The notes beneath the pieces are model-generated. The model did not search any database. It was not told the DNA's origin and saw only the letters and a list, made by a program, of their open reading frames with translations. Below, piece after piece: positions 20,626 through 24,225 of a DNA stretch of 32,052 bases (its first letter is position 1; every line of letters begins with the position of its first letter). Where the stretch lies: IMG/VR virus record IMGVR_UViG_3300046006_002150, positions 1 to 32,052 of that record. The stretch is one strand, 5' to 3'. This DNA comes from a virus. The translations under genes were made by a program, and so were the position numbers.

Positions 20626-21042
20626 TCAGGACAGTTCGCTGAACTCCACACCCAGATCCATGACGGCATACGCCTGGCTGGCGGTGATGAAGGTCGCGTA
20701 ATGCGGGTCGCTCAAGCGCTCGGTGGACTTGCTCCAGTTCCCGTTGGGCGCCATCGTCAGCGGGCAAAACAGGTCTTTCAGGTGTTCCTTCCAGACGGCG
20801 GGCGCGTATCGCACGCGCTGGCCGGTCTCTGGGTCGATCAGGCGCACCTGCTCGGCGATTTCCAGCAGCACGGGCCCGTGGAAGAGCTTTCGCATGGCTT
20901 CGCGGCTGTCCGGGTTGATGGGCTCCCAGACGATCCGGCCAATGCCTCCCTCGAAGGTGTGCGGCTTGATGTGGTTGCGCCATAGGTCCACGGTCGCGCT
21001 GTGGCCCTGGGCCGGGGTGGCCACGTCGATGCACTGCCTCAT
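20626..21042 (-). CDS. NinB-like recombination protein
   Basis: A 138-aa protein starting MRQCIDVATPAQGHSATVDL. The C-terminal half (GQRVRYAPAVWKEHLKDLFC, then KSTERLSDPHYATFITASQAYAVMDLGVEF) follows the pattern of NinB-family proteins, which in lambdoid phages assist recombination by ssDNA binding or mediator activity. The N-terminal part (KPHTFEGGIGRIVWEPINPD, REAMRKLFHGPVLLEIAEQV) fits the family's first domain. It is shorter than or equal to typical NinB. The start overlaps the preceding stop by four bases. Assignment by pattern only. Confidence 0.55.
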   Translation of the reverse strand: MRQCIDVATPAQGHSATVDLWRNHIKPHTFEGGIGRIVWEPINPDSREAMRKLFHGPVLLEIAEQVRLIDPETGQRVRYAPAVWKEHLKDLFCPLTMAPNGNWSKSTERLSDPHYATFITASQAYAVMDLGVEFSELS

Positions 21043-21230
21043 GCTGGGACCTGTCCGTGAAAATAAGCCATAGGCAGAGGCGTAAGCTGGGAGGCCCAGG
21101 CGTTGAAGGGGTGGCCCAATGGCCAGAATTGATCTGGGTAGATGGGCGCCACTTTTGGCCGCGGACCAGATGACAGCGCAAGCACTTCAGCGCTTCCGAA
21201 CCTGTAGCGGTGGCCTTGCTGGGCGTTCAT
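21039..21230 (-). CDS. Small hypothetical protein (63 aa)
   Basis: Starts MNAQQGHRYRFGSAEVLALS at 21230, where ATG overlaps the VRR-NUC stop as ATGA; an upstream in-frame start would only add residues overlapping that gene. It is rich in Pro and aromatic residues (PIYPDQFWPLGHPFNAWASQ), with no motif I recognise. The double four-base overlaps with both neighbours are the main reason to accept it. Such SH3-like small phage proteins are common beside nuclease genes, but no function is claimed. Confidence 0.55.
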   Translation of the reverse strand: MNAQQGHRYRFGSAEVLALSSGPRPKVAPIYPDQFWPLGHPFNAWASQLTPLPMAYFHGQVPA

Positions 21231-21601
21231 GGCTGGCTTTCCGGGAATGTCACGGTCAACATGCCGGCGTAACCTGTCAGCAGGCGCGCGGCAGCGTCCC
21301 AGCTCCAGCACACGGCCACGCACCAGCCTTGTTTCTGCAGTTGGGTGATGCGCTCGCGCTGTTCCTTCGTCGGGTTGCCGTCGCCATACTTGAATTCAAT
21401 GGCCAGGCCGACAAAGCCGCCACGCGGCACTGGCCAGGAAACGTCAGGCATGCCGGCCTTGACGCCTTCAGCCTTCAGCTTGGCGGCCACCGCGGGGTGG
21501 CGCTGGCCGCCGTTTGGGGTGGCGTGCAGCAGCTCGATGCCGGGGAATCGCTTCATGTTGGCCCAGCCGAAGAAGGCGGCTTGGTGCGCGTGCTCGCTCA
21601 C
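21227..21601 (-). CDS. VRR-NUC domain nuclease
   Basis: A 124-aa protein. The PD-(D/E)xK core is clear: HATPNGGQRHPAVAAKLKAEGVKAG leads to MPD with D53, then GLAIEFKYG with E69 and K71, and a TKEQRERITQLQKQGWCVAV helix that closes the fold. This is the standalone virus-type VRR-NUC domain, proposed to act on branched or replication DNA. Length matches standalone phage members. It overlaps the methyltransferase stop and the small gene downstream by four bases each, so DNA-processing proteins are co-translated. Confidence 0.85.
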   Translation of the reverse strand: MSEHAHQAAFFGWANMKRFPGIELLHATPNGGQRHPAVAAKLKAEGVKAGMPDVSWPVPRGGFVGLAIEFKYGDGNPTKEQRERITQLQKQGWCVAVCWSWDAAARLLTGYAGMLTVTFPESQP

Positions 21602-22587
21602 ATCACGCTTTCGATGAAGGCTTGCGCGGCTTTGGCGTTGATCGCGTTACCGTAGGCGCGCAGGCGTCCCACTCGGGCGGGAGACCCATGAGCCAGCGGG
21701 AATGTGCCGGGTTCAACTGGCCGCCACTTTCCATCCCGGCACAGGAGCCAGTCAGCATCTGCCCAGAGGCCGTTAGTCGGGCCGGGCCGGCCAGCGCCGC
21801 CACCGCCCCAAGGTCCGGTCCGTGATTGCGCATCGCTTCCCTGATTGCCCCGTCCGTCGTGCGCACACCCTTGTCCGCTAGCGATGCCGTCGGTGTCGGC
21901 CAGCCCGCTACCTTCACAGTTGGGGCACCCGTACCGTCCGAGTTTTTCAACATCGAAGCTGTAACCACAGGACTCGCAGGGCCGCAGAGCTGCGCCGTCA
22001 CGTCCAGCCTGTCCGTTGACCATTCCCCGTTGCGCATCCGTCCGCCCAAGTAGCCGCCTTTGTAGTCCGTCGTCGCTGGGGTTGGCCAGCCTGCCGGCCC
22101 AGTAGTTTCTGTCTCGGATGTGCGGCGCGCCGACGCCCGCAGACGGAAACGGGACACTCCCGAAGGCGTAACCCAAGGCTTCCATGTCAGCGTGTACAAG
22201 GTCGATCCAAGGATCAACAGCTTTGCTCGCAACCTGCTCTCCGTAGATTTCTGGAGGGCGGCACTGTGCGATGAGGTGATAGAAGGCGGGCCATAGGTGC
22301 CGCTCGTCAGCAAACCCATCGCCTTTGCCTGCCGCGCTGAAAGGCTGGCAAGGGCAGGAGCCGGTCCAGACGCGGCGCTCGTCGGGCCAGCCGGCAGCAC
22401 GTAATGCAAGGCTCCAGACGCCGACTCCGGCGAAGAAGTGGCACTGGGTATATCCAGCAAGCTCATCTGGTCGTACATCTTCAATGCTCCGTTCGTCAAC
22501 AATGCCGGGCGCGATGTGCCCGGCTGCTATCAGGTTGCGCAGCATCGCGGCTGCGAAAGGGTCGATTTCGTTGTAGTAATTGCTCAT
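21598..22587 (-). CDS. DNA (cytosine-5) methyltransferase
   Basis: A 329-aa protein; start [20 protein letters not shown] chosen because its ATG overlaps the preceding gene's stop by four bases. Motif I is [10 protein letters not shown] (50-59), motif IV is SCPCQPFS with catalytic C80, the motif VI position has GEQV (116-119) instead of ENV, and HIRDR (156-160) fits motif VIII; AYGNAI near the C-terminus is motif X. The target-recognition region holds LANPSDDG and LADTDG segments and a four-Cys zinc ribbon (C204, C207, C221, C224). Probably protects phage DNA from restriction. A second frame is open inside it. Confidence 0.85.
21603..22478 (-). CDS. Nested alternate-frame protein inside the methyltransferase gene
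   Basis: A 291-codon frame, same strand, different frame from the methyltransferase. The ATG ([16 protein letters not shown]) is preceded by GGAG at an 8-nt spacing. The product has a recognisable phage pattern: [20 protein letters not shown] (46-65), [14 protein letters not shown] (94-107), RASARRTS, two WPTP motifs (131-134, 193-196) and [17 protein letters not shown] (255-271). Similar WPTP...WLMG segments occur in phage proteins often annotated as methylases. Each WPTP coincides with a LAN/LAD codon run of the methyltransferase frame, so part of the pattern may be forced by that frame. Function unknown. Confidence 0.5.
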
Positions 22588-22805
22588 GACTTCCGCCAGT
22601 GCAGGACGATCCCGCGGATATAAACGGCTGTGTAGGCGGCCGAAAGAATGGCAAGGCCCCAGCTCGATGTCTGCCAGCAGAACCAGAACCAAAATGGTTG
22701 AGCGCACAGCCCGACGATGGGCGCCCACTTGCGCAGCCGCTCGTTCTTGCCGGTGGCCAGATACATGGCAGTGAGGCCGAAAAGGGCCATAAAAAACTGG
22801 CTCAC
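22584..22805 (-). CDS. Small membrane protein
   Basis: A 73-aa protein with a GTG start (GTGAGCCAG) overlapping the preceding stop; ATG six codons in is an alternative. Three hydrophobic segments: about 1-16 (FFMALFGLTAMYLA), 28-42 (PIVGLCAQPFWFWF) and 46-62 (WGLAILSAAYTAVYI), separated by a basic loop (KNERLRKWA) and ending HWRKS. Small proteins of this pattern recur in early regions of Burkholderiales phages. It is away from the lysis cluster, so I do not call it a holin. Confidence 0.6.
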   Translation of the reverse strand: MSQFFMALFGLTAMYLATGKNERLRKWAPIVGLCAQPFWFWFCWQTSSWGLAILSAAYTAVYIRGIVLHWRKS

Positions 22806-22852: not shown

Positions 22853-23064
22853 AGGGGTTTCTCCAATTTCAGCTTCGCGCAGGCCAAAATGTCGCCGCGG
22901 CTCGGCGCGCCAGGAAAGCGGGCGATAGCCGCCAGCATCACCGCTGCTTGTGGCTTGCTCGGGTGCGCGCTGACCACCAGGCGCGCGCAGCACTCCAAAC
23001 AGGCGAAGGCGTAACCGCCCCAGTGCGGCCGGGTTGATGCGTTCAGGCAGTTGCTGCATGTCAC
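22849..23064 (-). CDS. Small Cys-rich phage protein
   Basis: A 71-aa protein starting MTCSNCLNASTRPHWGGYAF. Two Cys pairs, CSNC (3-6) and CLECC (about 22-26), form a likely zinc ribbon; the following helix (SAHPSKPQAAVMLAAIARFP) and GAPSRGDILAC match a small conserved phage protein family found after replication genes. Function unknown, possibly nucleic-acid binding. A longer frame at 22802-23092 reads the same DNA in another phase and lacks these conserved features. It overlaps the replication gene stop by four bases. Confidence 0.65.
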   Translation of the reverse strand: MTCSNCLNASTRPHWGGYAFACLECCARLVVSAHPSKPQAAVMLAAIARFPGAPSRGDILACAKLKLEKPL

Positions 23065-23897
23065 GCACCCACCAGCTCGCCAGCGGCTTCAAGCACGCGG
23101 GCCTTGAAGGCCGGGAAGGTCTCGAGCACTTCGTCGCGCGGCGCCAGGCGCAGTTCGGCGGCCTTGGCGATGACGCCGGCGGCGGACTCGTGCCAGACGG
23201 TGGAGACCGGCGGCAGCGTGTTCTTGTCGGCGAACTTGGCCTTGGGCTCGAAGACGCCAGCCCAGCCGCTTTTGATCGAGTTGTTCAGGCAGTCCACGGG
23301 ATCGTGGCCAGCGGCGCGGAATTTCTCCAGGTCCTTGACGATGAGGCCCAGGGCGTGCGGCTCGTTTTTGGCTTTCTTTCCCGTGCGGACCTTGCAGTAC
23401 GCCGCCCATGTGTCCGCGGGGATCCAGTCCGGCAGAACAAAAGCCGGCGCGCCGGCCTCCTTTGTATCTTTCTTCTCTTCTCTACTCTTCTCTTCTCTGG
23501 TCCGCTTTGTGTCCGCACCGGATGCGGACGCTTTGCCGACATCAAGCGCCTCGGCCTCCCTGGCCAGCCGCTTGCGCTCTGTTTCGGTGGCGCGCCGCTT
23601 GGCTGACTGGCCGTTGTGCTCGTCGAAGCGCGGCACGTTCAGGCTGTCGGCCGTGTGTTCGAGCCACTTCACCACGATCATTTGAGCGGAAAAGCCGGCC
23701 CAGCCCAGGTGATCGTCGAGCACTTCCGGCGTGTATCCCTCGAGTTGTCCGTCGGCTGAGTGCATGTCGAACAGACACCAGACGGAATGAAGGGCGCCGA
23801 TAACGCGCAACTTGTCCGCTTTCAATGCGGACGACATGCGGACGATTTTCGGATGCGTCAGCAGGTCCGCGCGCATTTTGATCCAGTCACCGGCCAT
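23061..23897 (-). CDS. Phage replication protein (initiator-type)
   Basis: A 278-aa protein; start MAGDWIKMRADLLTHPKIVR at 23897 preferred over an earlier in-frame ATG. The N-terminal region (about 1-95; KADKLRVIGALHSVWCLFDM, LEGYTPEVLDDHLGWAGFSA, MIVVKWLEH, FDEHNGQSAKRRA) is a winged-helix-like domain typical of phage replication initiators. A charged linker (REEKSREEKKDTKE) leads to a C-terminal domain (LPDWIPADTWAAYCKVRTGK, CLNNSIKSGWAGVFEP) like those that bind a helicase loader. The gene contains a candidate origin (23457-23870), as lambda O does. It lies in the Cro operon. Confidence 0.72.
   Translation of the reverse strand: MAGDWIKMRADLLTHPKIVRMSSALKADKLRVIGALHSVWCLFDMHSADGQLEGYTPEVLDDHLGWAGFSAQMIVVKWLEHTADSLNVPRFDEHNGQSAKRRATETERKRLAREAEALDVGKASASGADTKRTREEKSREEKKDTKEAGAPAFVLPDWIPADTWAAYCKVRTGKKAKNEPHALGLIVKDLEKFRAAGHDPVDCLNNSIKSGWAGVFEPKAKFADKNTLPPVSTVWHESAAGVIAKAAELRLAPRDEVLETFPAFKARVLEAAGELVGA
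23472..23498. repeat. 12-bp direct repeat in low-GC tract
   Basis: CTTCTCTTCTCT occurs at 23472-23483 and again at 23487-23498, separated by ACT. On the coding strand it is all purine and reads Arg-Glu-Glu-Lys twice. Candidate DNA-unwinding element beside the 30-bp element at 23500. Confidence 0.65.
23500..23529. repeat. 30-bp origin-like element 1
   Basis: Begins GTCCGCTTT and ends ATGCGGAC with another GTCCGC inside at 23511-23516. The segment 23511-23529 is also a perfect inverted repeat (GTCCGCA-N5-TGCGGAC). Confidence 0.55.
23814..23843. repeat. 30-bp origin-like element 2
   Basis: Same length and same ends as element 1 (GTCCGCTTT...ATGCGGAC), with an extra GCGGAC at 23827-23832; the two GCGGAC copies are 11 bp apart, one helical turn. 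Its reading frame differs from that of element 1. Confidence 0.55.
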
Positions 23898-24225
23898 CAG
23901 GATCCCCGAAATATTCGGTCGCAACCCACACGGTCGCGTTCTTGCCGCTGGTGGTGGCGCGCTTTGTGCCGCTGTCCTTCACCCTATGGTGCTGGGTCAG
24001 CCAGACTCGGCGCGGGCGCTGTGTATTGGCCTGCATGGGGATCAGGGCCTGCATTTGCTCGTCCGTGGCGCCATGGCGTCCACAGCCGCGCAGGAAGGCC
24101 AGCACGGTGGTGGCGTCCGGCCCGGTCTTGTGCTCGATGCTGGCCGCGGCCTCGGCGCTGGTGGTGGATCCGCGCTGATACGGAGCGCGGGCGTTGCCCT
24201 GCTCAATGGCTGTAGGGGTGTTCAT
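23887..24225 (-). CDS. Small winged-helix-like DNA-binding protein
   Basis: A 112-aa protein starting MNTPTAIEQGNARAPYQRGS at 24225, where ATG overlaps the preceding stop; an upstream extension to 24483 would cover two other genes and is Gln/Arg/His-rich shadow. The pattern STTSAEAAASIEHKTGPDAT, VLAFLRGCGRHGATDEQMQA, then QRPRRVWLTQHHRVKDSGTK and ATVWVATEYF is that of small phage winged-helix proteins found next to replication genes. It ends 11 bases inside the start of the replication gene. A replication-regulator role is inferred. Confidence 0.65.
   Translation of the reverse strand: MNTPTAIEQGNARAPYQRGSTTSAEAAASIEHKTGPDATTVLAFLRGCGRHGATDEQMQALIPMQANTQRPRRVWLTQHHRVKDSGTKRATTSGKNATVWVATEYFGDPDGR

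Follow-up and report, generated by a model that had tools for sequence, protein, structure and literature searches.

We find that a methyltransferase locus in a viral genome record very probably carries two protein-coding frames, one nested wholly within the other in the +1 frame, and that both behave in sequence comparisons as frames under purifying selection. The record, IMG/VR IMGVR_UViG_3300046006_002150, was analyzed over its whole stretch of 32,052 nucleotides, which we call the window. From the sequence, we read the locus as coding for a cytosine-5 DNA methyltransferase with two subunits, as in M.EcoHK31I, in which the nested chain would be translated from its own ATG and Shine-Dalgarno (SD) sequence, would have a recognition role and would serve a protective purpose. 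We give this reading a probability of about 0.86.

In the proposed enzyme, the outer chain, alpha (329 aa), would be the catalytic domain, with the SAM pocket, Cys80 in PCQ, Glu117 and motifs I-VIII, plus the motif X helix. The nested chain, beta (291 aa), would be made from its own start inside alpha and would supply motif IX and most or all of the target-recognition domain; we place that domain on beta because the corresponding region of alpha looks disordered. The two chains would assemble as a heterodimer into one enzyme that methylates the phage DNA at a specific site, presumably shielding it from host restriction. The features of the locus, which lies on the minus strand, and its neighbors are listed in Table 1.

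Table 1. Coordinates of the nested methyltransferase locus and of neighboring genes in the window.
Feature	Position	Strand	Evidence
Alpha, cytosine-5 DNA methyltransferase frame, 329 codons plus stop, motifs I-VIII and X; encloses the nested frame	21598..22587	-	PF00145; phrog_363; HhaI sequence match; model match to HaeIII/HhaI methyltransferases
Beta, nested +1-frame gene, 291 codons plus stop, carries motif IX	21603..22478	-	phrog_31772; phrog_1008; open in 101/101 homologs; dNN/dNS 0.48
GGAG, SD-like, 8 nt 5' of the nested ATG (22478..22476)	22487..22490	-	Sequence; SD enrichment in homologs
Alpha motif I, FAGVGVW, residues 52-58	22414..22434	-	F52, A53, G54, G56 and W58 invariant in alignment A2
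Alpha motif IV, GSCPCQPFS, residues 76-84, catalytic Cys80	22336..22362	-	S77-S84 invariant in alignment A2
Alpha motif VIII, PHIRDR, residues 155-160	22108..22125	-	P155, R158 and R160 invariant in alignment A2
Beta N-terminal conserved core, residues 46-131: helix, hairpin, as far as the first WPTP	22086..22343	-	Nearly invariant columns of alignment A1; helix 70-90 and strands 95-103/109-117 at pLDDT about 80
Alpha residues 187-311, predicted disordered; same DNA encodes beta WPTP repeats and motif IX	21655..22029	-	pLDDT below 50 for 187-270, 272-278 and 293-311
Beta motif IX, residues 255-271; DNA just 5' of the alpha motif X codons	21666..21716	-	Nearly invariant in alignment A1; profile match to in-frame motif IX of one-frame actinophage enzymes
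Alpha motif X and C-terminal helix, residues 309-329	21601..21663	-	Y312-N314 invariant; pLDDT about 94 for 321-329
Replication initiator	23061-23924		
Small membrane protein	22584-22805		
Resolvase/endonuclease-like gene, directly downstream, overlaps the methyltransferase stop	21227-21601		
NinB-like protein	20626-21042		

An earlier note, made from the letters of this DNA alone, had proposed that the stretch encodes two recognizable protein families. The nested ORF that it described, with its ATG, GGAG at an 8-nt spacing and a stop 5 nt ahead of the methyltransferase stop, is correct to the base, and all the nested-frame peptides that it quoted are present in the translation. Its methyltransferase frame with motifs I, IV and X is likewise borne out by invariant columns and by matches to PF00145 and phrog_363. 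The idea of two families stands as two coding frames, which are supported by the open frame, the frozen synonymous sites, the start and SD sequence and a selection test; rather than unrelated families, they appear to be the halves of one split cytosine-5 methyltransferase.

The catalytic assignment of alpha is based on several kinds of comparison. Among the two frames, it is only the outer one that gives a significant Pfam match (PF00145, E 1.9e-8, 34.6 bits against a cut-off of 22), and this match covers residues 74-165 only. Alpha matches phrog_363 over its full length (E 5.5e-81) and, by sequence, HhaI methyltransferase. Invariant columns include F52/G54/G56 in motif I, P79-C80-Q81 in motif IV, E117-Q118-V119 in motif VI (where ENV reads EQV), R158/R160 in motif VIII and G313/N314 in motif X. 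In the structural model, confidence is high for the greater part of residues 1-180 and for the helix of motif X at the C-terminus, and a Foldseek search with this model matched the HaeIII and HhaI methyltransferases (E 4e-7). Alpha thus carries motifs I, IV, VI, VIII and X of a cytosine-5 methyltransferase, although nothing resembling motif IX is found in the outer frame in alignment A2, and motif IX and a recognition domain do not lie in the same polypeptide. Between motifs VIII and X, alpha is variable among homologs and predicted to be disordered. Within this otherwise variable linker, residues 203-223 (21919-21981) form a zinc-ribbon-like stretch that is also read in the nested frame. It is almost repeated in divergent nested methyltransferases (L150, L151, L154, L157 and L158) that are 30-39% identical elsewhere, and its sequence suggests a cassette that is shared or mobile.

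The nested protein matches PHROG 31772 (E 4.2e-38) and PHROG 1008 (E 7e-32), and has no match in Pfam, NCBIfam, PADLOC or PDB sequences. A tblastn search with it returned 198 phage records, mostly at 30-60% identity, and its family has a further 186 matching stretches in bacterial genome contigs. Its conserved core begins at residue 46 (SLSARQAK). Its C-terminus is laid out as a cytosine-5 methyltransferase motif IX, whose equivalent in E. coli Dcm we take to be RRLTPRECARLMGF. A profile of this C-terminus matches the in-frame motif IX of the actinophages JKSyngboy, Rita, Moonbeam and Papez, with E values of 5e-4 to 0.04 that lie above 2000 shuffled decoys; in Rita, the full nested profile also spans the LPTP repeats ahead of motif IX. 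The C-terminal half of the nested family therefore occurs in frame in ordinary enzymes, directly 5' of motif X. In the model of beta, which is weak overall (mean pLDDT 60, pTM 0.29), only a helix (residues 70-90) and a beta-hairpin (residues 95-117) come close to a pLDDT of 80. Foldseek gave nothing meaningful for this model, as expected at such low confidence. A poor model fits a chain that folds with a partner; this is no proof alone.

Several lines of evidence make it very probable that the nested frame is a true gene. We collected 160 viral loci, using the nested protein as the query for one half and only the methyltransferase for the other; these gave 101 distinct methyltransferases including that of the window. 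Across the overlap, the +1 frame is uninterrupted in all 101 (219-444 codons), about 40 of which were fetched by the methyltransferase alone, and the relative frame is always +1. In nearly all of them, no more than a few tens of bases separate the end of the nested frame from the methyltransferase stop. The earlier note had named stops in the nested frame of homologs among the observations that would speak against it; over the overlap in these homologs there are none.

A long open frame and a family-like protein could also arise as a shadow, with the methyltransferase alone being coded and the nested likeness following from the other frame and high GC. The window is GC-rich and has many long spurious ORFs, and WPTP corresponds to LA(N/D)(P/T) in the other frame. 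We therefore permuted synonymous codons, keeping the methyltransferase protein and its codon usage. Under this null about 3 nested-frame stops per gene are expected, whereas the homologs show almost none; the stop-free frame in the window has P = 0.0015. AT-richer relatives also retain the open frame: for Diva, K1G, pangalan, Delraymugoa, Bas78 and S72, 0/2000 shuffles were stop-free (P below 0.0005). Nested-frame identity among homologs is 0.53, compared to 0.29 in the shuffles. Synonymous sites tell the same story. Where two homologs have the same alpha residue, they also use the same codon more often than codon usage predicts, at about 1.2 times the expected frequency for residues 1-60 and about 2 times over most of 81-320. 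This roughly two-fold freezing over the nested core is the lower synonymous change that the earlier note had looked for, and it begins at the start of that core (nested residue 46), not at the start of the overlap. Together with a motif IX that lies in frame or beyond alpha in relatives, these results make a shadow origin very improbable, and the codon shuffles and AT-rich relatives largely refute GC bias as the source of the ORF. The earlier note's own caution about shadow conservation is thus answered for the nested frame, save its first ~36 residues, which do behave as a shadow would.

The frozen synonymous sites could instead reflect a non-coding element, such as an RNA structure or a DNA site, given that the third frame is also more alike than under codon shuffling (mean Z 7.3), i.e., there is conservation at the nucleotide level. 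To separate site classes we used a simplified form of the test implemented in OLGenie (PMC7531306) on 68 non-independent pairs. For the nested frame, dNN/dNS is 0.48 and dSN/dSS 0.38, so that substitutions track the nested codon phase. The unused third frame, which has about 11 stops per homolog, gave 1.45 and 0.77, and the region upstream of the overlap gave 1.01 and 1.55. Indels among homologs keep both frames. Given this codon-phase pattern, we rejected an RNA or DNA element as the cause and consider a non-coding element to be extremely unlikely.

How beta begins is a separate matter. Over its first ~36 codons the nested frame is free of any selection specific to it (dNN/dNS 0.96), so the nested ATG is a candidate start and beta may begin further in. 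This unconstrained N-terminus would also suit expression by ribosomal frameshifting from alpha, giving a fusion of motifs I-VIII with beta, as would the relatives that have all motifs in one frame and the GordTnk2-like phages, which have a single frame change, between VIII and IX. However, in a window-type layout such a product would lose motif X, and a +1-frame ATG with an SD core near the expected site is present in 64% of homologs compared to 13% of synonymous shuffles, an enrichment of about five-fold. The conservation of start and SD on which the earlier note had counted is therefore found, though the aligned nested ATG itself is lost in 18/101 homologs. Frameshifting seems quite unlikely, and we retain an own start for beta within the two-subunit reading. 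Both ORFs were called independently by the annotators of phages K1G, Diva and PhiXhv-18.

The arrangement of the motifs varies among relatives. Among the 401 loci with the alpha core, a regex places motif IX in frame +1 in 324, and a profile does so in most of 39 more. The motif is in frame 0 in 15, mostly actinophages, and the regex puts it in frame +2 in none. The one-frame actinophage enzymes have motif IX in frame with I-VIII and X, ahead of X. A third layout is seen in the split actinophages (L289-L317) and in GordTnk2 (L257). Here the catalytic frame closes soon after motif VIII, and motifs IX and X are both carried by the +1 frame, along with the LPTP repeats and, in many cases, a hairpin motif (WPTSGTMRNG). 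In the split actinophages, this +1 frame extends 334-643 nt past the alpha stop, where it is coded without an overlapping methyltransferase frame. Thus part of the nested family does occur outside an overlap, as the earlier note had hoped to see, but none of the 239 loci with a nested match has a complete free-standing nested protein. The order of motifs along the DNA is the same in nested and one-frame enzymes.

In a tree of the catalytic core, the nested layout occurs throughout and the other two layouts fall together in one actinophage clade (branch 99/90); the root did not resolve. Rooting the tree to decide whether the nested layout is ancestral was tried and dropped, Dcm being on a very long branch. 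The nested family of the window is found in phages of Proteobacteria, and the wider layout also in phages of Firmicutes and Bacteroidetes. We consider it probable that these loci form an ancient, large superfamily of phage and prophage cytosine methyltransferases, with hosts in several bacterial phyla, in which the DNA-recognition half (helix-hairpin, WPTP repeats and IX) is overprinted in the +1 frame of the catalytic half, and in which the three layouts (nested, split with IX and X together, and single frame) have been interchanged by frame changes while the motif order was kept.

Two further observations concern individual relatives. In the one-frame actinophage loci L253, L258, L260, L263 and L280, the upstream +1 frame still runs for 107-262 codons without a stop and in some of them has a WPPSGMTRSG hairpin motif; judging from these sequences, a shortened second chain may persist there. 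In Pseudomonas phage PACT201 (L248), pieces of the methyltransferase and the nested protein are scattered over all three frames, which suggests that indels have arisen, through decay or through errors in sequencing.

It is possible to imagine that beta, though a real protein, has a function of its own, such as counter-defense or regulation, and is no subunit of the methyltransferase: its C-terminal motif alone is recognizably methyltransferase-like, and its N-terminal core has no known relatives. Against this, the overlapping methyltransferase frame is present in 239/239 loci with a nested match, beta supplies exactly the motif IX that alpha is missing, and M.EcoHK31I provides a precedent. A separate role is unlikely in our view, and a subunit of a split enzyme is the reading that we follow.

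By analogy with that precedent, the nested two-subunit architecture and mechanism are of a known kind. In M.EcoHK31I, a different frame inside the gene for the large subunit codes for the small one, which has 176 aa; the beta of the window, with 291 aa, is longer. The enzyme (YGGCCR) was reportedly described by Lee, Kam and Shaw in 1995 and is said to be grouped with M.EaeI. Its large subunit has motifs I-VIII and X and its small subunit motif IX (PMC3404938). The window resembles it in all these respects (I-VIII and X on the large chain, IX on the small chain, the small chain inside the large gene), which is a likeness of architecture. However, the recognition domain of M.EcoHK31I has been assigned to its large subunit (PMC3404938), while in the window it looks to be on beta. 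M.EcoHK31I is also part of a restriction-modification system, whereas the window has no recognized restriction enzyme among the neighboring genes examined. M.AquI (CYCGRG) is another cytosine-5 methyltransferase that naturally occurs in two chains (PMC3404938). It separates I-VIII from IX-X, a split that the actinophage loci L289-L317 match and the window does not, as motif X (YGN) is retained in the large chain of the window.

The locus lies in a block of phage replication and recombination genes. Given that no restriction enzyme was recognized nearby, the enzyme is likely an orphan, self-protective methyltransferase. In E. coli prophage copies, a VRR-NUC gene is often next, in the same place as the resolvase/endonuclease-like gene of the window, and the pairing of methyltransferase and downstream nuclease may be functional. 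We also considered enrichment of YGGCCR in the gene and set it aside, because 5.1 sites per gene compared to 4.1 under codon shuffling is too slight. The whole window has 225 YGGCCR sites, where about 96 are expected from dinucleotides, i.e., there is no avoidance.

Most records annotate one frame only, and neither frame is presented as part of a nested pair. Because gene callers disfavor long overlaps, one subunit is missing or mislabeled in most records. PHROG 1008 and 31772 are labeled only 'DNA methyltransferase', and their overlap with phrog_363 in the other frame is unmentioned. The same nesting is annotated in both frames by the depositors of phage K1G (ORF30/ORF31) and Diva (g49/g50, 'g49 internal gene'), with the internal gene described no further than 'Mte8-like' or hypothetical. 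In the E. coli ECCTRSRTH03 prophage (L264), the annotation breaks the methyltransferase into two incomplete pseudogenes, and in Pseudomonas phage PMG1 (L256) the nested frame alone is annotated. The breadth of the arrangement across phages, its three frame layouts and the evidence of selection appear to be undescribed in the open-licence literature that we searched.

These findings bear on how such genes are read. Many phage methyltransferases that are annotated as single enzymes may be inactive if expressed alone. Split cytosine methyltransferases already serve as a platform for targeted methylation (PMC3439449), and the family is a source of naturally split ones. It is also a natural, deep data set for the evolution of two proteins on the same nucleotides, and its three frame layouts allow us to ask whether the overlap was gained or lost. 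If the superfamily is as we propose, it would rank among the longest conserved same-strand overlaps of double-stranded DNA phages, and among the most widespread.
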